This document shows, piece by piece, positions 2,771 through 24,009 of a DNA stretch of 33,852 bases. The DNA is from Candidatus Magasanikbacteria bacterium CG_4_10_14_0_2_um_filter_33_14 (GTDB lineage Bacteria > Patescibacteriota > Patescibacteriia > Magasanikbacterales > UBA922), in assembly GCA_002793035.1 (NCBI GenBank), contig PFPL01000041.1:1-33852 (forward strand), given 5' to 3'. Numbering within the stretch: position 1 is the stretch's first letter; each line of letters starts with the position of its first letter. Below the pieces are notes generated by a model. It searched no databases and was not told the origin of the DNA. It saw only the letters and a program-made list of their open reading frames with translations. Both the position numbers and the translations under genes were made by a program.

Positions 2771-3922
2771 TTATTTACCAAGTAGTCTGGCCCAAAAACC
2801 TTTTTTTTCTTTTTTAGCCAATTTTTTGTTAACAGAAGTTTCATCAAATCCAGCTTTTTCAATACTTTTTTGAACACCTGTTTCTATTGTAATTTCATCA
2901 ACAGCATTTTCTGCTTGTACATTAGAATTTGACATTCCTTTTACTCTATCATAATCAGTACTCCACTCTGAACTACTTTTAGATCTACCAAATTCTTTTG
3001 GACCTTTGGCATTCTCAATTGTATAACCTTTTTTTCTGGCTTCTGCAAGAACCTGTTGTTGTTGTTTTACGTCTGCTGTTTTATTATATTCTGTTACAGA
3101 AGAATCGTCTTCATTTTTAACGTCTTCATAAGCTTTAGACCATTTATCTTGACTACCCTTACCTCTATCAAGACCAAGACTATGTCTAAGCTGTTCTATT
3201 TCTTTTAATTTGTTATCAAGGTCAATACCTTGTGCTCTAAATTTTTCTACTTTTTTAATATTTCTTGAAAAAAATCCTTTTGGAATACTACCATCTTCAT
3301 TTATTTTTATTTTAAGATCATCATAGTTTGATCTGATTTCAGATATAAGATAAGCAAGACGATCTTGTCCGTTACCCTCTACTTCTGAAAGACCTTCTTG
3401 TTTTGTACCAGAAAAATTTCTTTGAGAACCTGGCATTTCACTATTTGTGTTACTAGAAAAAACATGACTAGTATTAACATTTGAGTCTCCTACTTTCTCA
3501 CTAGGCTTTCTTAAACTAACAGTATGATCATCTGGAGATCCTGCTTTGTTTATCATGTCAAAAGTAGCTTCTATTTCTTTTTTCTTTTTAGAATTTTCTA
3601 TACTTTTTTGAATATCAACAGAATCCTCAGGAATTGGAGGAGGAACTTCTCTTTGAGCACGTGCCAATTTTAACTGTTCTGTCACAGACATTCCTGTTGG
3701 TTCAACAGTTTTATAACCCTCACCACTAGAAATACGTTTTCTTGCCTGAGCAGCATTTTCATCAGAAAATCTTTGTGCCTTTTCTTTTAAAGTTAATTTA
3801 CGATTATTTTCGACCTGTTGAACAGGTCTCTCTGTTTTTCTAGTATCTGGATGACGTTTTGACGGCATCTTAGACTCTTTTTCTACTTTTGGATCTACTT
3901 TTGGTGATTGTTCTCCTCTCAT
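2771..3922 (-). CDS. Hypothetical 383-residue low-complexity charged protein with PPPIPE motif
   Basis: No known domain was recognised. The sequence is dominated by Lys, Glu, Ser and Asn and is probably largely disordered, with short helical stretches around residues 190-250. A proline motif VPPPIPEDS near residues 93-101 closely matches QIPPPIPENS at the C-terminus of the neighbouring 112-residue protein. The C-terminus (KKEKKGFWARLLGK) is a basic, aromatic amphipathic tail like that of the 71-residue protein. There is no signal peptide. Its position between two other unknown charged proteins suggests a joint function. A possible -10 (TATAAT on the minus strand near 3945) may give it its own promoter. 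Confidence 0.65.
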   Translation of the reverse strand: MRGEQSPKVDPKVEKESKMPSKRHPDTRKTERPVQQVENNRKLTLKEKAQRFSDENAAQARKRISSGEGYKTVEPTGMSVTEQLKLARAQREVPPPIPEDSVDIQKSIENSKKKKEIEATFDMINKAGSPDDHTVSLRKPSEKVGDSNVNTSHVFSSNTNSEMPGSQRNFSGTKQEGLSEVEGNGQDRLAYLISEIRSNYDDLKIKINEDGSIPKGFFSRNIKKVEKFRAQGIDLDNKLKEIEQLRHSLGLDRGKGSQDKWSKAYEDVKNEDDSSVTEYNKTADVKQQQQVLAEARKKGYTIENAKGPKEFGRSKSSSEWSTDYDRVKGMSNSNVQAENAVDEITIETGVQKSIEKAGFDETSVNKKLAKKEKKGFWARLLGK

Positions 3923-4019
3923 ATTTTTATGTTAGAGATGAATTATATTATTTGAAATTTTTTGTAAAACGAGGTTACAAATATTTTTTTCAAATAAATT
4001 TTTATAATTAAAATTGATA

Positions 4020-4358
4020 TTATTTAGAGTTTTCTGGAATTGGTGGTGGTATCTGCATTTTTCTTTCTATTTTTGCTTGTTTACTCATAGCAGAAATCTC
4101 AGCTTTTATATTTGCCAACGTAGCATTTTTATCTACTTCTTTTTCGATTTTTTCTTTTCTTTTTTGTTCTTCTTCTTTTTTGTTTGCAGCTCTTTTTTCA
4201 GCCTTATAAACTGTATTAGCAACCAAAACATCTGCTCTTGTCTGATATCTCATATCAGCTTCTTCTCTAAGAGAAGATCTATCTAGATCACTAGTAGCAC
4301 CAGAAGTGCCCGTAATTCTTTCTAATCCATTCTGTTTTGAATGATTATTTTCTATCAT
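4020..4358 (-). CDS. Hypothetical 112-residue helical protein ending in PPPIPENSK
   Basis: The family is unrecognised. Residues about 30-95 are a long charged helix or coiled coil (AEKRAANKKEEEQKRKEKIE). The C-terminus is QIPPPIPENSK, a proline motif shared with the adjacent 383-residue protein. It has no membrane segment or signal peptide. It is the first gene after the perfect consensus promoter at 4423-4451, so it may be among the more strongly transcribed genes in this window. The start ATG is preceded by A/T-rich DNA with no Shine-Dalgarno. Function is unknown. Confidence 0.65.
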   Translation of the reverse strand: MIENNHSKQNGLERITGTSGATSDLDRSSLREEADMRYQTRADVLVANTVYKAEKRAANKKEEEQKRKEKIEKEVDKNATLANIKAEISAMSKQAKIERKMQIPPPIPENSK

Positions 4359-4422
4359 AATAAAATATTAGAAATAAAAAGTTTTAAAAAAATTTATTAC
4401 TTTTTTAAGTGATTATGTACTT

Positions 4423-4451
4423 ATTATAGCACAAAAAACACGTTTTGTCAA
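4423..4451 (-). promoter_or_regulatory. Perfect consensus sigma70-type promoter for the charged-protein cluster
   Basis: On the minus strand the -35 is TTGACA (4446-4451) and the -10 is TATAAT (4423-4428), separated by exactly 17 bases. The -10 also has an extended TGC in front. Transcription would start near 4416, about 58 bases upstream of the 112-residue protein start at 4358. Confidence 0.85.
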
Positions 4452-4471
4452 TGTCTTTTTTTCGCTAACTA

Positions 4472-4499
4472 TTGCATTTTTTGAAAAAATCATTATAAT
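4472..4499 (+). promoter_or_regulatory. Promoter for miaB-miaA
   Basis: The -35 TTGCAT (4472-4477) and -10 TATAAT (4494-4499) have a 16-base spacer. The predicted start near 4506 leaves a leader of about 90 bases before miaB. That leader contains a 15-codon ORF (4544-4591) ending 6 bases before the miaB ATG; no terminator is visible there. The promoter is divergent from the one at 4423-4451, with 20 bases between them. Confidence 0.65.
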
Positions 4500-4597
4500 T
4501 GTAACACTAATATTAACAAGAATTTATACTAATTATTTTTTTAATGAACATTCCCCGTTCCACATTCCTTATTGTAAATAATAAATGTTAAAATTTT

Positions 4598-5938
4598 ATG
4601 AAAGACCAGCAAGAAAACAAAAAATTCCACTATCATATCATAACATTTGGTTGTCAGATGAACAAAAATGATTCAGAACGTATCGAATCTATTTTTGAGT
4701 CTATGAATATGAGTGCGACTGACAAACCAGAAGATGCTGATGTTATTCTTATGAACAGTTGTTCTATCCGTGAATCTGCTGAAGACCGTATTTATAGTTT
4801 CAGTCATGAATTTGCAAAATTGAAAGAAAAGAAACCAAACTTAATCGTCGCTGTCACTGGTTGTATGCCTGGTCGTGACAAAGACGGGACTCTACGACGT
4901 AGACTAAAAGGTGTGGATCTATTTTTCCCTACCAAAGACGTCATCATGATGCCAAAGTGGCTCAGTGAGCTCAATCCTGAGCTACGACCAATTGACTTAG
5001 AACTCGACTACCTAAGTGTCAAACCACATGTAAAGACCAAATTTCAGGCTTTTGTGACCATACAGACTGGTTGTAATCAGTTTTGTACTTATTGTGTTGT
5101 ACCTTACGCCCGCGGAATGGAAATAAACCGACCTCTCAAAGATATCCTTGATGAAGTAAAGTCGCTGGTAAATGATGGCTGTCTAGAAATCACACTACTA
5201 GGCCAAATCGTCAATCATTGGATTGCCAAAGAAGATGACAAATTTAGTACTGAAAATCCTTATAAACAAAATGACTTTGCCAAATTACTTTGGGAACTAA
5301 ACCAAATCGAAGGACTAGAACGTATTCATTGGACAGCACCTCACCCAATCCATATGGATGACGATGTGATTGACGCTCTAAGTTTGCCAAAACAATTGAA
5401 CTTCATTCACTTGCCTGTACAATCTGGTAGTAGCAAGATTCTAAAAAAGATGAATCGCAAACACACACGTGAATTATATTTGGAAAAGATAAAGAAGATT
5501 CGTGAGAAAAATCCAGACATTGCGATTGGGACAGATATTATAGTTGGTTTTTGTGATGAAACAGCCGAAGACTTTGCTGAAACAATTTCACTCTACAAAG
5601 AATGCGACTTCGATATTTCTTATACGGCAAAATATTCCAATAGATCTGGTACACTGGCAGACAAACTTTTCCCCGACAATGTCACACAAGATGAGAAGAA
5701 AAAACGCTGGTTTGAATTACAACACCTTATGGAAGACATCGTACTCCGTAAAAATCAAGTTTACAAAGGTAAAGAAGTCTCTGTCTTAGTAGACACCTTC
5801 AAAAATGGAATGTGCGGTGGCAACTCTCGAGAAATGAAACGTATCAATTTCCCAGGTAACCAAAACCTTGTGGGGAAAATTGTAAATGTAGAGATTACAG
5901 AGCCCTCACACTGGATTTTGTGGGGGAAAATGCTATAA
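4598..5938 (+). CDS. miaB: tRNA-2-methylthio-N6-dimethylallyladenosine synthase MiaB
   Basis: MiaB is a radical-SAM methylthiotransferase that converts i6A37 to ms2i6A37 in tRNAs reading UNN codons. The 446-residue protein has the three N-terminal cluster cysteines C19 (FGCQMN), C55 (NSCSIR) and C89 (VTGCMPG). The radical-SAM CxxxCxxC motif is at C159, C163 and C166 (CNQFCTYC). A C-terminal TRAM RNA-binding domain (about residues 380-446) follows. Length is normal for the family. The usual GQNVNSY motif reads GQIVNHW here, a modest deviation. It is 25 bases upstream of miaA, whose product makes its substrate, so the pair forms a pathway operon. MtaB/RimO alternatives are less likely given the GCQMN motif and the miaA linkage. 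Confidence 0.95.
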   Translation: MKDQQENKKFHYHIITFGCQMNKNDSERIESIFESMNMSATDKPEDADVILMNSCSIRESAEDRIYSFSHEFAKLKEKKPNLIVAVTGCMPGRDKDGTLRRRLKGVDLFFPTKDVIMMPKWLSELNPELRPIDLELDYLSVKPHVKTKFQAFVTIQTGCNQFCTYCVVPYARGMEINRPLKDILDEVKSLVNDGCLEITLLGQIVNHWIAKEDDKFSTENPYKQNDFAKLLWELNQIEGLERIHWTAPHPIHMDDDVIDALSLPKQLNFIHLPVQSGSSKILKKMNRKHTRELYLEKIKKIREKNPDIAIGTDIIVGFCDETAEDFAETISLYKECDFDISYTAKYSNRSGTLADKLFPDNVTQDEKKKRWFELQHLMEDIVLRKNQVYKGKEVSVLVDTFKNGMCGGNSREMKRINFPGNQNLVGKIVNVEITEPSHWILWGKML

Positions 5939-12323: not shown

Positions 12324-13271
12324 TTAAAATTTGACACCCAAAAGCCAAAGCAATATCGCCTTTTGCATATGCAGACGATTTTCGGCTTGGTCAAAAATTA
12401 TAGAATTCGGATGGTCCACTGCATCACGTGAGATTTCATAACCAATATGACATGGCATACAATGCATTATCTTCGCCTCTGGTGCATAAGTATCTATCAG
12501 CTTGGCATTTAGCTGATATGGCATGAATTGTTCTTTGCGTTTATCGAATTCTGCTTGCATTTCTGGTCGAACATGTCCCGCATCAAAAAATTCCATATTC
12601 ATCCAAGTATCTGTATGAACATAATCAGCATCACGCAAAGCTTCTGCCAAATCCAAAGTGCGAACTACATTGCCAGTTTCTTCTGCTTGTCGGTTCAATT
12701 CTTCGTCCACACTATCTGCGTCAACTTCTGGAGCGACGATGTAAATTTTTATGCCCAACTTGGCACACATGAGCATTAGCGTGTTTGACACATTGTTTTC
12801 AATTCCTAACCAAACAACTTTTTTAATATTTTCTATTCCGCCAGAGTGCTCGACCATTGTTAGTAAATCACTAAGCGCTTGTGCTGGATGATATTTTTCG
12901 GAACATGCATCTATCACCGAAATTTTATTTAGATTGGCAGCAGTTTCTACATCTGAAACTTTCAAAGCTCGGTACATTAGCACAGCTCCAAAACGCATGA
13001 CAGCTTGTATTTCATCTTTGAAATCTGTGAGAGAAAATTGTGAAGTACGTTTGTCAAGAAAAATCGCATGACCACCTAGCTCAGTCATTGCTGCTTCAAA
13101 AGACAATCTAGTACGCGTAGAACTTTTTTCAAAGAACATTATCAAAGTTTTGTTAGGAAGATAATTGGTAATTTCCCCACTATTTCTTTTTTGTTTTAGT
13201 TCTTTTGCAATTCGGAGCATTTCCAAAATATCTTCTTTACTTTGTTCTTTTAGAGATATAAGATGACGCAT
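12324..13271 (-). CDS. Ornithine-carbamoyltransferase-like enzyme in the pyr operon
   Basis: The 315-residue protein belongs to the aspartate/ornithine carbamoyltransferase family. The carbamoyl-phosphate site is intact: SSTRTR (50-55), YR (100-101), HPAQ (128-131), HCMP (270-273) and ENR with Arg299. HCxP and FDQAENRLH resemble ornithine carbamoyltransferase (ArgF) rather than PyrB. However, the amino-acid-binding loop, normally DxWxSMG in ArgF, reads DTWMNME (221-227) and is followed by an insertion of about ten residues. The asparagine expected before the HPxQ segment is replaced by Asp121. So the second substrate is uncertain. It is 17 bases downstream of pyrI and last in the pyrB-pyrI operon. 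No other arginine gene is visible here. Confidence 0.8.
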   Translation of the reverse strand: MRHLISLKEQSKEDILEMLRIAKELKQKRNSGEITNYLPNKTLIMFFEKSSTRTRLSFEAAMTELGGHAIFLDKRTSQFSLTDFKDEIQAVMRFGAVLMYRALKVSDVETAANLNKISVIDACSEKYHPAQALSDLLTMVEHSGGIENIKKVVWLGIENNVSNTLMLMCAKLGIKIYIVAPEVDADSVDEELNRQAEETGNVVRTLDLAEALRDADYVHTDTWMNMEFFDAGHVRPEMQAEFDKRKEQFMPYQLNAKLIDTYAPEAKIMHCMPCHIGYEISRDAVDHPNSIIFDQAENRLHMQKAILLWLLGVKF

Positions 13272-13288: not shown

Positions 13289-13756
13289 TTAATTATTTTT
13301 GTATTCCAAGATATCACTCTGCAAAAATATTTTTTCACAATAATGACACTGCAATTTCAACTGACCATTGTTTCCTATTGTCTTGAATTTGGTCTCGATA
13401 GCCTCATGATTGGTAATACACTTCGGGTTTGGACAAACTATAATATGCGTAATCAAAGAAGGTAATCTAGTATTGAATTTTTTTACTACTTGAAAATCTT
13501 TGATAATATTCACCGTTCCTTGTGGGGCGAACATCGCCACTCTGTCAGCTTCTTCTTCTGACAATTCCTTACCTGCTACCTTTATAATATCTTTGACACC
13601 CAGACTACCACTAGGTAAATTGAGTCCGATAGTAACGACTTGTTTGTGACTAGCCAAATCAAGTAGTCTCACAATCTTGAGAGCATGCCCAGCTGAGATA
13701 TGGTCTATGACCGTACCATCTTTGATAGCTGAGACTGATAAAGTTTTTTGTTCCAT
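13289..13756 (-). CDS. pyrI: Aspartate carbamoyltransferase regulatory subunit PyrI
   Basis: PyrI binds CTP/ATP and UTP and tunes the PyrB trimer in the classic 2:3 holoenzyme. The 155 residues include the N-terminal allosteric domain (KDGTVIDHISAGHALKIVRLL, about 12-32; IGLNLPSG; KDIIKV). The C-terminal zinc domain has all four ligands: C108 and C113 (CPNPKC), C137 and C140 (CHYC). Length and spacing match the E. coli protein. It sits between pyrB and the ornithine-carbamoyltransferase-like gene. It implies CTP feedback on pyrimidine synthesis in this organism. Confidence 0.96.
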   Translation of the reverse strand: MEQKTLSVSAIKDGTVIDHISAGHALKIVRLLDLASHKQVVTIGLNLPSGSLGVKDIIKVAGKELSEEEADRVAMFAPQGTVNIIKDFQVVKKFNTRLPSLITHIIVCPNPKCITNHEAIETKFKTIGNNGQLKLQCHYCEKIFLQSDILEYKNN

Positions 13757-13871: not shown

Positions 13872-14789
13872 TTAAATTTTACCTAAAACGCTCGCAATAA
13901 GGGCTTGTCTTACAAACAAACCATTTTGTGCTTCTTCAAAATAATAAGCGTGAGATGTATCATCTATTTTTTCATCTAGTTCATTTACTCTAGGAAGTGG
14001 ATGCATGATTTTCAAATTGTTTCGAACGTCAGACAACATTTCTTTTTTCAATCTAAAAACATTTTTTATTCTTTCATATTCCATTTGATCAGGAAATCTC
14101 TCACCTTGAATTCTCGTGAGATAAAAAATATCTACTTCATTTATCACATCTTCCATTTTGTCATAGATATGAAATTCTACTCCCGCATTTTTCAATTCTT
14201 CACAAATATAATCTGGCATTTGGAGACTGTCTGGTGCTACAAAATGTAAACGCACATTGAAATGTGTGAGAGCTTGGGCTAGCGAATGTGTCGTGCGACC
14301 ATATTTCAGATCACCTACTAGAGCAATATCCAATCCATCAATTCGTCCTTGGCATTCACGAATAGTAAACAAATCAAGCAAAGTCTGTGTCGGATGTTGA
14401 TTGGCTCCGTCACCACCATTTAGTACCGGCTTATTGGTAGCTTCCGAAGCACGACGAGCTGCACCCTCCAACGGATGACGCATAGCAATGACATCTACAT
14501 ATTGTCCAATAATCCGCATACTGTCCCACATCGTCTCACCTTTTTTGGCAGAAGTCACAGCACCATCAGCAAAACCCACGACTTTACCACCTAGTTTGGA
14601 CATCGCTGTCTCAAAGGATAATCTCGTACGCGTGGAAGGTTCAAAAAAACAACTTCCCAAAACCATTCCTTCCAACAATCTTGGTTCTGGATTAATTTTT
14701 AGTCTGTCAGCTTTGCCCAAGACAGACAAAATTTCCTCCTTACTCAAATCTTTTATAGAAACTATACTTCTACCTGCTAAACTTGCCAT
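13872..14789 (-). CDS. pyrB: Aspartate carbamoyltransferase catalytic subunit PyrB
   Basis: PyrB condenses carbamoyl phosphate with aspartate, the first committed step of UMP synthesis. The 305-residue protein has PSTRTR (51-56) and the cross-subunit loop SAKKGE (80-85) with Lys83. It also has MRHP (103-106), GDGANQHPTQ (126-135), VGDLKYGRTTHS (158-169), the aspartate-loop motif TRIQGERF and MHPLPRVNE. All active-site signatures are intact. It is the first gene of the pyrB-pyrI-carbamoyltransferase operon. The start is only 15-25 bases past an intrinsic terminator, preceded by a short leader ORF and its own promoter, so expression is probably set by attenuation. Confidence 0.97.
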   Translation of the reverse strand: MASLAGRSIVSIKDLSKEEILSVLGKADRLKINPEPRLLEGMVLGSCFFEPSTRTRLSFETAMSKLGGKVVGFADGAVTSAKKGETMWDSMRIIGQYVDVIAMRHPLEGAARRASEATNKPVLNGGDGANQHPTQTLLDLFTIRECQGRIDGLDIALVGDLKYGRTTHSLAQALTHFNVRLHFVAPDSLQMPDYICEELKNAGVEFHIYDKMEDVINEVDIFYLTRIQGERFPDQMEYERIKNVFRLKKEMLSDVRNNLKIMHPLPRVNELDEKIDDTSHAYYFEEAQNGLFVRQALIASVLGKI

Positions 14790-14803
14790 AAAATATACGT
14801 TAA

Positions 14804-14829
14804 AAATAAAAAACCGTTACTTGATAGTA
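14804..14829 (-). terminator. Intrinsic terminator/attenuator directly before pyrB
   Basis: On the minus strand a perfect 8-bp stem CCGTTACT / AGTAACGG with a 4-base loop (14814-14833) is followed by TTTTTTATTTTT. It lies about 20 bases upstream of the pyrB ATG. The stop codon of the leader ORF (14817-14819) is inside the 3' arm, so a ribosome finishing the ORF would prevent the hairpin. It may also end read-through from purB. Confidence 0.85.
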
Positions 14830-14927
14830 ACGGCGGTGTTGATAATAAATTGGAAAAAAGAAAATTCAGTCTCTACTTGCAAGCAAGTATTTTTTGGTAA
14901 CAATATTTTTCTTTTTTTGTATTTCAT
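14817..14927 (-). CDS. Candidate pyrB leader peptide (36 residues)
   Basis: This short ORF begins about 8 bases after the predicted transcription start. It reads MKYKKRKILLPKNTCLQVET followed by EFSFFQFIINTAVTIK. It ends inside the attenuator hairpin. The mRNA first passes a perfect palindrome (TACTTGC TT GCAAGTA, about 14870-14885) that could pause RNA polymerase. It then passes a pyrimidine-rich tract (TTTTCTTTTTTCC) encoding the Phe-rich segment FSFF. The same order (leader peptide, pause hairpin, U-rich Phe codons, terminator, pyrB) is known from E. coli pyrL-pyrBI. Translation has not been shown and there is no Shine-Dalgarno, but neither is there one for other genes here. Confidence 0.6.
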   Translation of the reverse strand: MKYKKRKILLPKNTCLQVETEFSFFQFIINTAVTIK

Positions 14928-14941
14928 AATTTATTTTTATC

Positions 14942-14968
14942 ATTATAACATGAATCGAAAAATGTTAA
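14942..14968 (-). promoter_or_regulatory. Promoter for the pyr operon leader
   Basis: The minus strand carries an extended -10, TGT TATAAT (14942-14950). An upstream TTAACA (14963-14968) has a short 15-base spacer, so the extended -10 probably does most of the work. It overlaps the end of purB and predicts a start near 14935. Confidence 0.6.
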
Positions 14969-17642: not shown

Positions 17643-20600
17643 TTAAGATTTATACTGTAGTGCTTCAAACAATCCTTTAAATCCGGCTTTATAAGCCATC
17701 CCTTGTAATACACTTATATTTTTCAAAAGTAAAGTAAAATTTAGAGGAACCTGAATACCAGAGCTCTTAATCGCAACCAACTCTCTTTGGGCTGTAAGTG
17801 AATCTTGAGACTCTAATGCCTTTACAAAACTCTCGACATTTTTCTTAACTTTTTGTAAATTTTTAATTGATACGTCATGACCATCTGTAAGGTATTGCAA
17901 AAATTTTTCAGATCTCTGTTCCAAACCCGCGCCTTTGGAAATAAGTGACATAAACAAAATTTTCTCTTCATTACTAATATCCAAATAAAAATTTCTGTCA
18001 TACACGACTAATTTTTTATCTGAAGTAATTGAAAAATTTCCAGGATGTACATCTGAATGCATCTGCCCATTTTGCATTTGTGTCAAATAAAATCTAATGA
18101 AAATCGCAACAACGTCTTTCATATCATGTCCTTCTTCTTTAAGTTTTTCCCATTCTGTTAAGTTTGTACCACTTGCTTTTTCTTCCATTACAAAATATTT
18201 ATTTTCTGGTCCGTAAGAAGCTGGAACATACACTTCATAAGCAGAACCAAAAGATTGTCCATCATAAGTTTCTTTGAACTTTTTATCTTTTTCTAAAAAA
18301 TCTACGAACCACATGTCTGCCTCTATCCACTTTTTTATATCATCCAAAAGTAATTGAGCCGCTGTATATTTTTCTCTATTTTTTGGTAGAAGTAATTTTA
18401 TAATTGATGAAATGTATGAATGCATTTCTGATAAATGATAATTCAAATTTGGATTTCTTACTTTTAAGACCCTCTTTGAACCATCTTTCATAGCAACTTC
18501 AAAAACAGAGACAATGGAACCCCCTCCAATTCTATTCTCAACTTTTTCTACTGATTCCCACATATCTGGCCATTCTCTTTCTAATAATTTAATTGCCGCT
18601 ATTTTTGTTTGACCCTCCACTCTATCAAAAATTTCTGAAAATTCAACCAATTTTTCTTTTGGAACTTCTGTAATAAGAGGAAGTTGTTGCAAAAATCTAA
18701 CACCCAAGGCTCCCATACGAGAACCAAGATCTTTTACCATTTGAAAAGGAGCTACACGTTTTTGTTCAACTGTATTTACAAAAATTCCTTGTTTCAATAA
18801 AGACTCTCTGATCTTTGACATTTCCTCATTTATTATATACTCTGAATACCTCCAATATTCTTTTCTTTGGGAGCTGCTCAAAGATAAAGTTTTAATTCTC
18901 TTATCAAACTCCGCAGGCTCTTCAAAGTGTAGTTCTATTCCCAGATGGTCACTATTATCCTTTGACTGTTCTGCACTTTTAAGATCCTCGTCAACATCAT
19001 ATATATCCTCCAATTTTGTACTTTCTTTAGGTGGTAGTCCAATATAATCAGATAATATAGCTTGTAAAGACATATAGGTATATTCCCAATCACTATATTT
19101 GGCAATAGCATCACTTATCTGACCTATGACTTCAGAAACTTGCTTTTCCCAAGCAGATCCCTCTTTACCTTCTGGTTTCTCTAAGAAATCTTCTTGTAAC
19201 ATGCCCATCAATTTTTTTCGTCCAGAAAGTTTCAATATAAGACCACCACGACCTACCAATATTTTTCTGAGCAAAGCTGTTCTTGAAAGATTACCAGAAT
19301 TATAAATAGCTCTTCTCAAAGCTTTGGCTTTTTCTATTACACCAACAACATCGTAGATATTTTTTTCACCATCACCAAGTGAAGGTTGAAAAAAATCATA
19401 AATATTTTTGGACAATTCTTCATCTGAAAACCTTGCCGATAGTAATGACCTCAAAAAAGCAAGACTATCTCTAAACTGTAAAGTTGTTGTCTCTAAAAGG
19501 GCAATTGCACCAAGCTTAACAGATCCTTCTTCTACTTCTTGTGTCATTTTATCTTCTAACACTACCATTACCTGTTCATATTCTTCTTTTGTCTGAACAT
19601 CTTCTTCTAGAAATTTTTTCAAGAAATCAAAAGAAACTGAGATACCACTCTCTGTATTTGAAAAACACAATTCAAACTTTTCTGAAAAACTTACTTGTTC
19701 CCATTTATACTCAAGACTTTTTTGAACAGCAGATACTAAACTTTGGTCAAAAACTAAATTTGAAACTTTAAGAGCATCTTTTAAAGATAAGCTACTAAGA
19801 CCCTCAGATTCGATAACTTTTCTTACAGCAATAGCCAGGTTTGGACAAATATTTATATTTTGTTTTAACAGAACAAATAGTTCACCACACTCATTCTTCA
19901 AATTTTCCAAATTAGCAAAAATTTTAGATATATCTTTTTCATGAAAATATCCATCAAGTAACCTTACAAAAAAATGAGTAAGATGTCCCTCAGAAGTAAG
20001 TCTGCTAATACCATGAGGATTTTCTTTGGATACAAAATATTTATAAGCTAACACTATTTTTTCTTCAGTCACCCCACCAACAAAAAGCTTATCAATATCA
20101 AACCAATCTCTTATCGTCTTATCCATCTCTTTTAGTCTTTCCTTATAATCAATCATCGATAAACCTATTATATGTTCAGTTTCAGACTCTTCCAATCTAT
20201 CAGAATCTTCATTATAAGACATCTTATCCTTATTTTTTCTATAAGTGTCCAAACTTCTTTTTGCATTAAAAGAATTTAAAATCTGATGAAGACCAACACC
20301 ATTCCTATGAGCCATTAATTTCTCAATTAACAAATACTCATCTTCTGTAAACATTTTTTTTGCTCCAAATAATGTGATTTCTACCTGCAAGTAATCCATG
20401 TAAGCCATTCGCGCTAATTCTAAATTAGCAGAATAGGCAAACCTATCTGCGTCTACGTTCTTTATAGTTTGTATTCTAGCAGCAAACTCCTTATCATTCT
20501 TCATTTTAAAGAAAAAATAATCTCTAATGTTATCTACAGTCTTTGCATATTCTGCAAAAGTAGCCTCTGAGCAGTTATCCCAAATTTCTTGATACAAATC

Positions 20601-22238
20601 ACTCAGTTTGTATTTTTTATTTAAATCATACAATCTGTCACCAACCTCTATTTCAAAACTACTAAAATTGCTTTCCGTTTTTTCAGCAAGAAAACTTTCG
20701 TCCTCTCTCTCTGTATTTTCTGTCTTTGTTTTTCTTAATAAATTCTTGGACTTTTCATCTTCAAAAGACCCGTACCAAAGATCATAAGCCAATATCTTTA
20801 GTCTCCCCAACGATAAAGTCTTGCTATTACCAAATTTATCAGCAACCTTACCTAGAGAAACCACCCATTCCTCAATAAAAGAATCCAAACTTGAGGTGTC
20901 TCCTTTTTTTATATCATCTTCAAATAATTTTCCTTTCACAGCCTGTCGACAAATGTCACTCCAAAATCCATAAATACTACCCTGACTTAAAACATATTCA
21001 AAAGGTGTTCCTACTTCCAAAATATTTTCTAAACTTTTTTTTAAATCAACAAAGTCTTCTTTTGTTTTCATTTCTAAAAACAAATCAATACCAAATTTGT
21101 TTAAGAATGCTTTTTTTTCTTGTATATCTACAGAATAAACCATACCAAGTCCTTTCCCTATACTAAGCTCTGAAGAAAAAACGTTGACACCACAAAATAA
21201 ATTCAATAATAATAATTCTCTTTGTGAATAATCTTTTGCCTTTAGGACATCCATACTTTCTAAGTCTTCTCTACCCAATAATGAAACAAACTTTTCTAAT
21301 AATTTCTTTAACAATTCGACATCTAATTTTGATTTTTTATCACATTTTATATGAGAAAACAAAGTATCAATGGCAAATTGAATCTGATTCAATGTTATAT
21401 TTTCTACCGCATCAAGTTTTCTTTTATGTCTTGCTTGCAATTCATCTTCTTTAAGAATATAAGCTGGTTTTAACGCCAAGTCTACGTTTCCTTCACTCAT
21501 TTCCCTCTCCATATCAGACAAAGCTTCTTTATCAAGAGTTACAGGGTCATTCAAATCAGCAAGTGATTGAAAATCTACCAAATACGTGGCTGTATTAATA
21601 TTTAAAGCTCTATCCATACTTCCTCCATGTTCTGCACCTATTCTATCTCCTCTCTGATCTCTAGCCAATCTCGTCATAACACTTTTTAAACCTAACGGAG
21701 AAACTCCTATACTATCTAATACTTTGTAAACACCCTCTAAATCAGCTTGTAGTTCTTTTGCTCTACCAGAACCCACTTTTTTCAAAGCACTCTTTGCAAA
21801 GTCTGTTAAAGAACCTTCAAACTTTCCATCTTTTTTACTCTTAATGTGTTCTCGATAAGCGTGTACATATTCATGTGCTAATATGCCCAATAGCTCTTCT
21901 TCAGTTTCTAAATACTTCAAAAGCCCAGAAGAAATCATAATAGTACCGTCTGGAAAACACATAGCATTTTTGTCAGGCATATGTGTCAAAACACAAATAT
22001 CTTTAATAGGAAAACCTTTTTGCTCCGGCAATTTAGCAACTAAATCTTGCAAATATTTACTCATTTTATTTTCCGAACTCAATTCTCCATATCTAAAATG
22101 CATGTATTCCTTTGATTGTTCTATTGCACGATTAAAAGAAGGATCTTCTTCTTCAATTTTTTCCTCTTTTTCAGTATCTTTACTAGGAAGTGCCTCCATG
22201 GCAAATCTCCTTCTGGCATATTCTTCTGAAGAACTCAT
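17643..22238 (-). CDS. Giant protein: N-terminal M48-type metallopeptidase domain and C-terminal ABC1/UbiB-like kinase domain
   Basis: The 1531 residues contain two recognisable ends. At 60-210 lies a peptidase core with HEYVH (122-126) and a second zinc motif ELQAD (162-166), as in M48. At about 1175-1450 lies an ABC1/UbiB-like kinase: candidate lysine K1259 in VLKVRNP, HSDVHPGN (1394-1401) with catalytic D1396, and D1414 in VVYDRN. Departures from UbiB are clear. The Ala-rich AAASIGQ loop is GGGSIVS (1238-1244), KxGQ is replaced by RFLQ (1181-1184), and the DFG glycine is lost. The 900 residues between are helical, acidic and unrecognised. There is no signal peptide or membrane helix, so it is probably cytosolic. 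It heads the purA-purB transcript. Confidence 0.85.
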   Translation of the reverse strand: MSSSEEYARRRFAMEALPSKDTEKEEKIEEEDPSFNRAIEQSKEYMHFRYGELSSENKMSKYLQDLVAKLPEQKGFPIKDICVLTHMPDKNAMCFPDGTIMISSGLLKYLETEEELLGILAHEYVHAYREHIKSKKDGKFEGSLTDFAKSALKKVGSGRAKELQADLEGVYKVLDSIGVSPLGLKSVMTRLARDQRGDRIGAEHGGSMDRALNINTATYLVDFQSLADLNDPVTLDKEALSDMEREMSEGNVDLALKPAYILKEDELQARHKRKLDAVENITLNQIQFAIDTLFSHIKCDKKSKLDVELLKKLLEKFVSLLGREDLESMDVLKAKDYSQRELLLLNLFCGVNVFSSELSIGKGLGMVYSVDIQEKKAFLNKFGIDLFLEMKTKEDFVDLKKSLENILEVGTPFEYVLSQGSIYGFWSDICRQAVKGKLFEDDIKKGDTSSLDSFIEEWVVSLGKVADKFGNSKTLSLGRLKILAYDLWYGSFEDEKSKNLLRKTKTENTEREDESFLAEKTESNFSSFEIEVGDRLYDLNKKYKLSDLYQEIWDNCSEATFAEYAKTVDNIRDYFFFKMKNDKEFAARIQTIKNVDADRFAYSANLELARMAYMDYLQVEITLFGAKKMFTEDEYLLIEKLMAHRNGVGLHQILNSFNAKRSLDTYRKNKDKMSYNEDSDRLEESETEHIIGLSMIDYKERLKEMDKTIRDWFDIDKLFVGGVTEEKIVLAYKYFVSKENPHGISRLTSEGHLTHFFVRLLDGYFHEKDISKIFANLENLKNECGELFVLLKQNINICPNLAIAVRKVIESEGLSSLSLKDALKVSNLVFDQSLVSAVQKSLEYKWEQVSFSEKFELCFSNTESGISVSFDFLKKFLEEDVQTKEEYEQVMVVLEDKMTQEVEEGSVKLGAIALLETTTLQFRDSLAFLRSLLSARFSDEELSKNIYDFFQPSLGDGEKNIYDVVGVIEKAKALRRAIYNSGNLSRTALLRKILVGRGGLILKLSGRKKLMGMLQEDFLEKPEGKEGSAWEKQVSEVIGQISDAIAKYSDWEYTYMSLQAILSDYIGLPPKESTKLEDIYDVDEDLKSAEQSKDNSDHLGIELHFEEPAEFDKRIKTLSLSSSQRKEYWRYSEYIINEEMSKIRESLLKQGIFVNTVEQKRVAPFQMVKDLGSRMGALGVRFLQQLPLITEVPKEKLVEFSEIFDRVEGQTKIAAIKLLEREWPDMWESVEKVENRIGGGSIVSVFEVAMKDGSKRVLKVRNPNLNYHLSEMHSYISSIIKLLLPKNREKYTAAQLLLDDIKKWIEADMWFVDFLEKDKKFKETYDGQSFGSAYEVYVPASYGPENKYFVMEEKASGTNLTEWEKLKEEGHDMKDVVAIFIRFYLTQMQNGQMHSDVHPGNFSITSDKKLVVYDRNFYLDISNEEKILFMSLISKGAGLEQRSEKFLQYLTDGHDVSIKNLQKVKKNVESFVKALESQDSLTAQRELVAIKSSGIQVPLNFTLLLKNISVLQGMAYKAGFKGLFEALQYKS

Positions 22239-22264: not shown

Positions 22265-22293
22265 ATTATAGCAAATCATAAGCTATTATGTAA
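22265..22293 (-). promoter_or_regulatory. Possible promoter for the M48-kinase/purA/purB operon
   Basis: An extended -10, TGC TATAAT (TATAAT at 22265-22270), lies about 27 bases upstream of the start at 22238. The -35 region (22288-22293, TTACAT) is poor and overlaps the end of guaB. The call rests on the -10 alone. Confidence 0.45.
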
Positions 22294-23719
22294 TCGCAGT
22301 CACATCATGTACACCACTTTCCTGTAATCCTGCTCCACTTATTCTCACAAACTCAACATTTTTTTGTAATTCAGCAATAGTGTGTGAATTAGTATAACTC
22401 ATACCAGATTTTAGACCTCCAACCATCTGATGAATAATACTTCCCACATCACCTTTGAATGGAACGATTGATTCTACACCTTCTGGCACTACCTCACTCA
22501 TGTTTTTCTTTTTTTCTTGATTTATTTTTCTTCTATCATTGGCTTGAGTGAAGCTAGCACTACCACGAGAAATTTTGAATTTTTTGTCTCCCTTGTTCAT
22601 AATTACTCCTGGACTTTCTTCGGTACCAGCGAGCATACTACCAAGCATAATACTATCTGCTCCAGCACCAAGAGCTTTGACCATGTCCCCAGATTTTTTG
22701 ATTCCACCATCAGCAATAACGGGCACACCATATCTCTTAGCGACATTGGCAGCTTCCATCACAGCAGTAAGCTGAGGCATCCCACAACCTGTCACAATAC
22801 GTGTAATACAAATAGATCCTGGACCAACACCTACTTTGACAGCATCTACTCCTGCTTCACAAAGCTCCTCTGCCGCTCGAGCTGTAGCAATGTTACCAGC
22901 AATTAAATCTACTTCTGGTACCACTTCACGAAGTTTGGCGACAGCATTGAACATAAGATCTGAGTGACCGTGTGCGATGTCTATAACTAATACATCTACT
23001 CCAGCTTTGACAAGTTCTTGAGCTCTTTCCAAATAATCTCCATGAACTCCCACACAAGCACCAACAATGAGACGTCCCTCACTATCACGATTGGACAAAG
23101 GATAATTTATAATATGTTTGATATCATCACTAGTAATAAGTCCTACAATATGATTTTCATCATCTACCAATGGCAACTTTTCAACTTTGAATTCAGCAAA
23201 AATTTTCTTAGCTTCTTCAAAAGTTGTGTAAGCATTACCAACTATTAGTTTTTCTCTTGGTGTCATTATTTCTTCAACTCTTTGATTCATGTCAGTAGCG
23301 AAAAGAAAATCACGACGAGAAAGTACACCACGCAATTTGTTGTCTCCATTTGCCACCAACAATCCTGATACGCCAGTTTCAGATGCGAATTCTTTGGCTT
23401 GTGATACAGTACTTGTTGGGTCAACAGTATAAGGATCACTAACAATCAGATTCTGAGCACGTTTCACTCTTTTTACCTCTTCCACATTTTCTTCAATGCT
23501 ATTGAAACGATGCAAAATTCCAATACCTCCCAAACGTGCCATAGCAATTGCCATATCAGATCCAGTCACTGAGTCCATATTGGCAGAAACTATCGGAACA
23601 TTTAGATTGATATGACGAGAAAGCCTAGTCTTGGTTGTTGCTTCATCACGAGATGAAAAACTAGAACGACGAGGAACAATCAAAACATCATCGTAAGTAA
23701 GGGCTAATGGTATATGCAT
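22286..23719 (-). CDS. guaB: Inosine-5'-monophosphate dehydrogenase
   Basis: GuaB oxidises IMP to XMP with NAD+, the committed step to GMP. The 477-residue protein has the N-terminal barrel start ([25 protein letters not shown] at 44-53). A CBS pair lies at about 93-205. The barrel then resumes with DIAHGHS and the catalytic loop [13 protein letters not shown] (299-311), with nucleophile Cys304. IADGGIK and the flap segment before VPEGVE follow. Length is typical, and both CBS modules are retained. It is upstream of the M48-kinase/purA/purB genes, placing both branches from IMP side by side. A promoter and terminator unit lies 170-290 bases upstream of its start. Confidence 0.97.
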
Positions 23720-23888: not shown

Positions 23889-23912
23889 AAAAAAAACCAC
23901 CGGATATGGTGG
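23889..23912 (-). terminator. Intrinsic terminator between the zincin gene and guaB
   Basis: The minus strand shows CCACC ATATCC GGTGG (23897-23912) followed by eight T residues. It ends any transcript from the promoter at 23981-24009 or from the metalloprotease gene upstream. Confidence 0.8.
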
Positions 23913-23974
23913 CTTGTATGTCAAATAAGGGTTATTCTTTCTCCTTTTAATTTTTGGAAAAATAGTCTCATAGC
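23889..23974 (-). ncRNA. Candidate short terminated transcript or attenuated leader upstream of guaB
   Basis: A good promoter (23981-24009) and an intrinsic terminator (23889-23912) bracket about 85 bases. The transcript could be a small RNA, or a guaB leader with conditional termination. It contains a 16-codon ORF (23921-23971, MRLFFQKLKGERITLI) whose stop is 8 bases before the terminator stem. Its ATG is only about 3 bases from the predicted start, so it would be translated as a leaderless ORF if at all. No known RNA family was recognised. Confidence 0.45.
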
Positions 23975-23980
23975 TAATTT

Positions 23981-24009
23981 ATTGTAGCATGTAATTTTTA
24001 GACTGGCAA
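23981..24009 (-). promoter_or_regulatory. Strong promoter upstream of guaB
   Basis: The -35 is TTGCCA (24004-24009), the spacer is 17 bases, and the -10 is TACAAT (23981-23986) with an extended TGC. Each hexamer matches consensus at five of six positions. The predicted start is near 23974. Confidence 0.75.

Follow-up and report, generated by a model that had tools for sequence, protein, structure and literature searches.

Upstream of pyrB, the gene for the catalytic chain of aspartate carbamoyltransferase, a Candidatus Magasanikbacteria genome carries a short leader that probably (at odds of roughly two in three) acts as a translation-coupled transcription attenuator of the pyrBI type, controlling a pyrimidine operon through an apparently leaderless open reading frame (ORF). 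The leader lies on the minus strand of the window, by which we mean the whole stretch of 33,852 nt that was analyzed; this stretch is contig C62 of genome G000 (1.10 Mb, 71 contigs). The closest named pyrB loci belong mostly to Candidatus Magasanikbacteria, of the Patescibacteria (Candidate Phyla Radiation, CPR) lineage. An earlier note on this DNA had proposed a pyrL-like, translation-coupled attenuator in front of pyrB-pyrI in a CPR bacterium, and this proposal is supported by the conserved ORF and terminator and by a spacing like that of Escherichia coli. Three features described below go beyond that note, namely the leaderless start, the exchange of the downstream gene and a copy of the leader before guaB.

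The pyrB leader and the position of its stop codon

The leader starts with an extended -10 element, TGTTATAAT (14942..14950, minus strand; TG at 14950-14949, TATAAT at 14947-14942), which was identified by sequence and -10 score. TG-extended -10 elements recur upstream of most related leader ORFs. The ORF that follows (14817..14927, minus strand; ATG at 14927, TAA at 14819-14817) has 36 codons, encodes the peptide MKYKKRKILLPKNTCLQVETEFSFFQFIINTAVTIK and has homologs in the genomes G039 (locus L245) and G038 (L240). Its ATG lies 14 nt beyond the -10 element and is thus near-leaderless. Within the ORF, a candidate pause hairpin, TACTTGC-TT-GCAAGTA (14874..14889, minus strand; 6 bp with a 4-nt loop on folding), is separated from the terminator by a U/C tract, TTTTCTTTTTTCC (14852..14864, minus strand), encoding an FSFF stretch. 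The intrinsic terminator (14808..14833, minus strand), recognized by sequence, terminator detector and folding, consists of a perfect 8-bp stem, CCGTTACT-ATCA-AGTAACGG, at 14833-14814, followed by TTTTTT. The stop codon of the ORF is located within the 3' arm of this terminator and ends 3 nt before the end of the hairpin, while the pyrB ATG (14789) is found 24 nt beyond the stem. This succession of -10 element, ORF, palindrome, U/C tract, terminator with the ORF stop and pyrB had been listed in the earlier note and was confirmed base for base.

Of 200 dinucleotide shuffles of the 152 nt at 14789-14940, 199 fold less well than the native sequence (z -3.0). A scan of 6 kb around the leader gave no excess of promoter-like (25 versus 22.1 in shuffled sequence) or terminator-like sites (3 versus 3.5), and single leader elements alone are therefore no evidence, since such sites occur locally at the shuffled rate. 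The layout as a whole exceeds chance, given its fold and its recurrence in relatives.

Relatives were collected by pyrB protein searches in overlapping sets of genomes: the family (17 of 46 genomes at E 1e-3, with the 12 strong matches used), the order (22/86 at 1e-60), the class (24/380 at 1e-90) and the phylum (8/379 at 1e-90). Upstream DNA was obtained for 43 pyrB loci of the phylum, of which L123 and L131 end too close to pyrB, leaving 41 informative loci. We should note that L015 (44% identical and without the first 38 residues of the match) and L040 (the same sequence as L137) were left out of the counts, and that five archaeal loci (L046, L050, L052, L060, and L091) and one of Omnitrophota (L048) were not counted. 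With a terminator required to start at most 260 nt upstream of the pyrB match and to reach a detector score of at least 11, a terminator precedes pyrB in 24 of the 41 loci (22 by the detector; L130 and L140 by eye).

The leader ATG was chosen with a simple -10 score of at least 4.5, which qualifies 20 of the 24 terminator loci, from 18 genera. Eighteen of these 20 ORFs, including that of the window, stop in the zone from 8 nt before the hairpin to its end. Shuffling both leader and hairpin gives an expectation of 3.4 of 20 (P about 1e-12), and shuffling with the hairpin kept gives 4.4 of 20 (P about 4e-14); the P values ignore relatedness, and the 8-nt margin was fixed after the data were seen. 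The two other reading frames reach the zone in only 1/20 and 5/20 leaders. Four loci with a terminator fall outside this test (L112, L127, L140, and L141), three of them without an ATG that has a -10 element in range. By eye, the ORFs of L127, L140, and L141 end in the hairpin or within about 10 nt of it; L141, from another class of the phylum, has a short ORF with a Shine-Dalgarno (SD) sequence ending 5 nt before the terminator.

The short ORF and the terminator are retained in many relatives despite complete sequence drift. Between sister leaders, ORF lengths differ by +3 (L115/L118), +6 (L007/L241) or net +3 (window/L245), and indels inside the ORFs are multiples of three, except at the 3' end of L240. 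Substitutions are spread evenly over the codon positions, with no third-position excess. The frame is thus kept from the 5' end to the terminator, while the peptide is under no visible constraint, which fits a ribosome acting as a roadblock rather than a sensed peptide or codon.

Some pyrB loci are arranged differently. In L112 (G057), the stop codon of the upstream gene (gatB by eye) directly precedes the terminator before pyrB, so the last ribosomes of that gene could take the role of the leader. In L119 (G083), a -10 element lies about 10 nt before the ATG of pyrB itself and no attenuator was found by eye, making it a leaderless, unattenuated comparison. Tandem cassettes, in which each terminator has a short ORF ending in or near it, were found in L006 before pyrB (G027) and in L236 before another gene, PRK06886 (G043). 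The second ORFs of both were read by eye, and that of L006 starts directly after the T-rich stretch of the first terminator. Two further leaders recognized by eye, that of L127 and the second of L006, entered only the tests of composition and spacing.

Leaders of the same design before PRK06886 and guaB

About 1.0 Mb from the genomes G027, G000, and G031 was scanned for the cassette pattern, which gave seven occurrences in the true frame. Four of these are pyrB or guaB leaders and a fifth, in G031, precedes an amidohydrolase gene that belongs to PRK06886, a “hypothetical protein” family in NCBIfam (NF005365; 356.5 bits, cut-off 340). The remaining two, L195 (directly behind a larger gene) and L216 (an ORF of 5 codons), look like chance.

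PRK06886 is encoded by 14 of the 86 genomes of the order at E 1e-20 and by none of the 22 genomes with pyrB, a non-overlap with a chance of 0.011 if the genomes are independent. A short ORF and a terminator precede the gene in all 14 loci. Twelve of the 14 stops fall in the zone from 8 nt before the hairpin to its end (expected 2.1, P 2.7e-9), as compared with 0/14 and 2/14 in the other frames. The exceptions are L236, which stops 13 nt before the hairpin, and L240, which runs through it; in this test the -10 element of L235 scores 4.0, and L236 was scored on the first of its two hairpins. The gene upstream of the cassette is divergent in L232, L233, L234, L235, and L239, so the terminator cannot belong to that gene.

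The four other genomes of the window's genus (G037-G040) are all without pyrB. In two of them, G038 (L240) and G039 (L245), PRK06886 is preceded by a leader that is homologous to the pyrB leader of the window and located, as in the window, after purB. Both keep the hairpin, the terminator and an identical TTTTCTTTTTT tract. In their pause stem one pair is changed on both sides relative to the window, from G-C to T-A, and the loop differs. A second such case is genus g28, where the pyrB leaders L007/L008 are homologous to the PRK06886 leaders L241/L242.

The window itself contains a second cassette (23894..23990, minus strand), located before guaB, the gene for IMP dehydrogenase (22286..23719, minus strand; Pfam IMPDH; TIGR01302, 525 bits). 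It consists of an extended -10 element (TGCTACAAT), an ORF of 16 codons (MRLFFQKLKGERITLI; ATG at 23971, 9 nt after the -10 element) with a stop 5 nt before the hairpin, and a terminator (AAGCCACC-ATATCC-GGTGGTTT); guaB starts 174 nt after this hairpin. This sequence is conserved within the genus, where all five genomes, including that of the window, have the cassette. Among 33 of the 36 guaB loci of the order (G024, G004, and G066 were left out), it is present in 13 of the 23 loci with at least 65% identity (the hairpin of L167 by eye) and in none of the 10 loci at 42-48%. In nine of the 13 ORFs the stop lies inside the hairpin or at most 8 nt from it (expected 2.5, P 1.2e-4; other frames 0/13 and 2/13), and all 13 stop within 20 nt of it (expected 4.2, P 3e-7), a margin chosen after viewing the data. 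L168 has two equal-scoring ATGs, of which the one with a 9-nt gap was taken (stop at -18; the alternative at -22). Since the five same-genus leaders are close copies, the effective sample is about eight genera. We also considered a GTP-tuned G-tract in guaB leaders: AGGAG or GGAGG occurs in 7/13 guaB, 3/22 pyrB, and 3/14 PRK06886 leaders (looked for after noticing it), which is only a hint, as the overall G content of guaB leaders does not differ (p 0.13). Taking the pyrB, PRK06886, and guaB leaders together, none of the 47 tested stops lies more than 18 nt before its hairpin.

Among 49 leaders (22 pyrB, 14 PRK06886, and 13 guaB), the gap between -10 element and ATG is 9 nt in 23, and of the 48 leaders that have a fair -10 element, 47 show a gap of 6-15 nt. 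As the ATG assignment allowed only gaps of 5-16 nt, this range partly follows from the procedure, unlike the sharp peak at 9 nt. In ordinary genes of three sampled genomes, the same -10 pattern is found most often 24-30 nt from the start. Given the usual spacing between a -10 element and the transcription start, a gap of 9 nt leaves a 5' untranslated region (UTR) of about 3 nt; the pyrB leader of the window, with its 14-nt gap, would have one of about 8 nt. An SD-like tetramer precedes the ATG in only two of the 49 leaders. With a gap that is most often 9 nt, the leader ORFs look leaderless. SD tetramers are 1.9-fold over background in a sample of the window genome, 0.9-fold in G031 and 4.1-fold in G027; the earlier statement that the genome has no Shine-Dalgarno is thus roughly right for the sample of the window genome.

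Mechanism, signal and alternative explanations

In the proposed mechanism, transcription would start a few nucleotides before the leader ATG, and a ribosome would load at the extreme 5' end of the transcript by leaderless initiation and trail the RNA polymerase. An unhindered polymerase would let the terminator hairpin fold before the ribosome arrives, and transcription would stop ahead of pyrB. A polymerase that is slowed would be caught up by the ribosome, which at the stop codon in the hairpin would block folding and let the polymerase enter pyrB-pyrI; in the window's lineage, slowing would most likely occur at the pause hairpin and U/C tract under a shortage of UTP and CTP. Control of the terminator by a ribosome translating the leader ORF is the part of this reading that we consider highly probable. 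In the available extract of an E. coli study, moving the stop codon to 5 bp before the terminator cut termination from about 90% to below 10%, with a limit near 27 nt (PMC4824070), and another source, also seen as an extract, states that pyrL requires tight coupling to prevent its terminator (PMC5021804). Gating by the ribosome is preferred because of these stop-distance data and because no stop tested here lies more than 18 nt ahead of its hairpin.

The nature of the signal is less firmly indicated. The pause hairpin and U-tract occur at E. coli-like spacing in the window and its two same-genus homologs (L240 and L245); for the U/C tract as sensor in the window's lineage, the chances are about even. 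As pyrB and PRK06886 both head a pyrimidine operon, the leader most simply serves pyrimidine supply, and pyrimidine nucleotides are slightly favored as the signal for the pyrB operon. Against gene starts of matched GC content, G-rich 12-mers are scarce in pyrimidine-gene leaders (27th percentile, z -4.8, n 35) and not in guaB leaders (54th percentile, n 13), although the low value may partly reflect absent coding selection. The last 30 nt contain more pyrimidine in pyrimidine-gene than in guaB leaders (0.546 versus 0.462; p 0.013, uncorrected, among 18 tests). Together, these two differences give weak support for leaders that may be tuned by the product of their operon.

Several observations weigh against the proposed attenuator. 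No terminator was detected before pyrB in 17 of the 41 informative loci; in several of these, pyrB follows an apparent carB 3' end (by eye). Two ATGs are tied in each of L011, L115, and L118, and scoring the tied ATGs of L115 and L118 as misses lowers the count of stops in the zone to 16/20; the best ATG of L140 scores 4.0 and would miss, its inclusion giving 18/21. The ORFs of L117 and L130 (pyrB) and of L240 (PRK06886) run through the hairpin with no stop there, that of L130 ending at an ATGA overlap with the pyrB start. The seven true-frame cassettes in about 1.0 Mb stand against 15 over the two wrong frames, so the pattern alone is not enriched genome-wide. G037 and G040, of the window's genus, are without both pyrB and PRK06886 at the thresholds used. 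Finally, U content does not set pyrimidine-gene leaders (n 36) apart from guaB leaders (n 13), either overall (0.284 versus 0.276, p 0.97) or in the last 30 nt (0.350 versus 0.285, p 0.14), and the U-richest 12-mers of 35 pyrimidine-gene leaders are at the 55th percentile of GC-matched gene starts. L007, L008, L010, and the first L006 leader keep ORF and terminator with no visible U-tract.

A conserved UTP tract as a general rule was thus not found in three tests. Since U-richness is not shared by the leaders, we infer UTP as a plausible signal only, and the U-rich tract to which the earlier note linked a possible sensitivity to UTP does not hold as a shared feature. That note had also named conservation of the leader elements in close relatives as a check. 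ORF and terminator are conserved in many, pause hairpin and U-tract in the window's lineage, and the U-tract is not general. The pattern it named as speaking against an attenuator, a kept terminator with both ORF and U-tract lost, was seen for the U-tract in part of the relatives, while the ORF is retained.

The strongest competitor keeps the ribosome-gated terminator but lets it respond to how fast the polymerase moves overall, or to the general state of NTPs and ribosomes, rather than to UTP in particular; pyrimidine and guanylate genes would share the terminator because the need is shared. Its chances, which overlap with those of the pyrimidine-sensing attenuator, are somewhat short of even. 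The cassette in 13 of 33 guaB loci, the pyrB leaders without a visible U-tract and the lack of a common codon run or peptide all speak for it, whereas the differences in G-rich 12-mers and in terminal pyrimidine between the two kinds of leaders speak against it. An amino-acid or nascent-peptide attenuator, with the ribosome stalling at particular codons or on a sensed peptide, would share the anatomy of a short ORF before a terminator. It is nevertheless very unlikely: there is no run of a single codon and, by eye, no residue common to the leaders of 18 genera beyond the start; sister leaders change as often at the first two codon positions as at the third; and the fixed place is held by the stop and not by an upstream codon. 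By eye, the listed pyrB, guaB, and PRK06886 leader peptides show no run of codons for a regulated amino acid.

Alternatively, the terminator could be an ordinary one, belonging to purB or to some small transcript, in which case pyrB would have a promoter of its own and the ORF would be present by chance. The chance rate of the single elements around the leader, a TATATT just upstream of the pyrB ATG and the leaderless-type promoter directly on pyrB in L119 (by eye, with no attenuator) are in line with this. We regard it as improbable, though by a shade less than the amino-acid type, as the same cassette is found behind five divergent upstream genes and ahead of three genes that are unrelated, and its stop is in register far more often than in shuffled sequence. 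A leader RNA bound by a protein or ligand, as in PyrR-type control or a riboswitch, is the least probable explanation of all. PyrR commonly attenuates pyr operons in other bacteria. However, an Rfam 15 scan of the window at the gathering threshold returned four tRNAs only and no leader RNA family, and by eye the leaders have no RNA sequence in common outside sister genomes. The translation-coupled pyrBI-type attenuator with a leaderless ORF thus remains the preferred reading.

Operon genes and comparison with known systems

The minus-strand gene order in the window is purA, purB, leader, pyrB, pyrI, and an ornithine carbamoyltransferase (OTC)-like gene. pyrB (13872..14789, minus strand) matches Pfam OTCace/OTCace_N and TIGR00670 (373 bits), and pyrI, the regulatory chain (13289..13756, minus strand), matches Pfam PyrI and PyrI_C and TIGR00240 (176.7 bits). 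The OTC-like gene, third in the cluster (12324..13271, minus strand), scores 276.6 bits, slightly below the TIGR00658 cut-off of 280.85; its product shares 70% identity with the OTC encoded in the pyr operon of G032. pyrD (PF01180) has a match in four of the five genomes G000 and G037-G040, while OMP decarboxylase (PF00215) was not matched at E 1e-10 in any of the five. A separate protein of the window (17643-22238, minus strand; 1531 residues) joins a Peptidase_M48 domain to an ABC1-type kinase domain.

In other genomes of the order (loci L232-L245; operons L253-L259, L266, and L268), the head of the pyr operon is occupied by PRK06886, together with argG/argH, instead of pyrB-pyrI-pyrC-OTC. 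Eighteen operon stretches were compared, nine of each kind, with an absence threshold of E 1e-6. The pyrB operons encode pyrI (9), pyrC (8 clear, weak in G027), OTC (8), pyrE (9), pyrD (8), and pyrF (7). The PRK06886 stretches have no pyrB, pyrI, pyrC or OTC at this threshold; all nine encode argG and/or argH, and eight encode pyrD, pyrE, and pyrF (pyrE weak in G077), the stretch of G038 having argH only. For one stretch of each kind, Pfam scans gave the same picture. In L265 (G027) we found two apparent fusions, of pyrB and pyrI in one 482-residue frame (601-2074) and of pyrD and pyrE in one 901-residue frame (3031-5740).

The best solved relative of PRK06886 is AtzC, N-isopropylammelide isopropylaminohydrolase (2qt3, E 6e-23), which by its name removes an alkylamine from a ring compound. 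The HxH motif, two further His and an Asp aligned with AtzC, which we take to be metal ligands, are invariant in all 13 aligned members (L245 was left out). By analogy, removal of ornithine from cyclic argininosuccinate would give dihydroorotate, and PRK06886 may convert argininosuccinate or its cyclic form directly to carbamoyl-aspartate or dihydroorotate, with release of ornithine. This proposal draws on where the gene lies in the operon, on the lack of pyrB and pyrC there and on the kinship with AtzC. A role in cytosine salvage was rejected, as the gene stands in the pyr operon. Two PRK06886 operons contain a fumarase/aspartase-type lyase gene (L256, 3333-4658, plus strand; L254, 3625-4945, in operon direction), which would fit a supply of fumarate or aspartate for argininosuccinate. 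A carA match was found in only seven of the 86 genomes of the order, leaving 79 without. For genomes without a carA match, the pyrB-OTC version would fit a route from arginine to carbamoyl phosphate such as that demonstrated, according to an extract of the source, in Thermococcus (PMC13260591).

Taken jointly, leaderless mini-ORFs ending in a terminator could be regulator-protein-free sensors of pyrimidine and guanylate nucleotides in Patescibacteria, with the pyrimidine version staying in place while pyrB-pyrI-pyrC-OTC is exchanged for PRK06886 and argG/argH, whose route would bypass carbamoyl phosphate, aspartate carbamoyltransferase and dihydroorotase. This full combination is tentative and rather doubtful as a whole. 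If it is true, nucleotide sensing by ribosome-polymerase coupling is no enterobacterial peculiarity, since it would extend to many Patescibacteria, with genomes near 1 Mb, and it would operate from leaderless mRNAs. The pyrB and guaB leaders would then be a test case for direct NTP sensing at two operons of one genome, and the fact that genes are swapped downstream of a common leader suggests a pathway for PRK06886 and a way in which some carA-less genomes may make pyrimidines.

The kind of mechanism is known from pyrBI attenuation and, as far as an extract of the source tells, from leaderless attenuator ORFs in mycobacteria (PMC9031893); the same review describes leaderless mRNAs as rare in E. 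coli. As far as our searches show, the phylum, a leaderless leader that gates a terminator, its occurrence upstream of guaB and the swapping of operon heads downstream of a common leader are new: among the matches listed in the open-licence literature, judged by title and start of abstract, there was no attenuation in Patescibacteria, no leader-peptide attenuator of guaB and no pyrimidine route through PRK06886.

As to origin, a PyrB tree was built from 35 pyrB rows of the best 80 matches together with the pyrB and OTC of the window; many of its forks are weak. The PyrB proteins of 11 Pseudomonadota form one clade (100/100) on a long branch, and the CPR rows are not nested in it. A recent transfer of pyrB from enterics is thus not seen, and a recent transfer of the whole device is not indicated either, because the CPR proteins fall outside this clade. 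Some Pseudomonadota controls show an ORF near a terminator before pyrB by the same detector (e.g., L079) and others do not. Independent assembly and an old shared origin both remain.

Among known systems, pyr attenuation in Bacillus relies on the nucleotide-binding protein PyrR and an antiterminator RNA. It has the pyrimidine operon and the intrinsic terminator in common with the window leader, but no such RNA family was matched in the window. In the Salmonella mgtCBR tandem attenuators, one signal is ATP, sensed through coupling. Judging from an extract of the source, translation of their short leader ORFs is expected to control stem-loops in the leader (PMC3641672); the tandem layout resembles that of L006 and L236, while genes and ORFs differ. 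The polycysteine attenuators of mycobacteria, as far as the source is available, also use a short leaderless ORF to control the operon behind it, as proposed for the window leader. They need contiguous cysteine codons and act on downstream translation (Canestrari et al. 2020, via PMC9031893), whereas the Patescibacteria leaders have no codon run and the terminator would be gated.

The closest counterpart is the pyrBI leader (pyrL) of E. coli, which likewise has a leader ORF, pause hairpin, U/C tract, and terminator followed by pyrB. The two differ at both ends of the ORF. The E. coli leader has an SD sequence (GGGAGGATGT) and 25 nt from the -10 element to the ATG, as compared with no SD and 14 nt in the window (9 nt being the commonest gap among the leaders). 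The pyrL ORF stops 27 nt after the hairpin, unlike that of the window, which stops inside it; the ORFs of L117, L130, and L240 do extend beyond the terminator. Pause stem, U-tract, and terminator are located at +38/+63/+94 in the window and at +32/+60/+88 in E. coli pyrL, each within 6 nt of its E. coli position.

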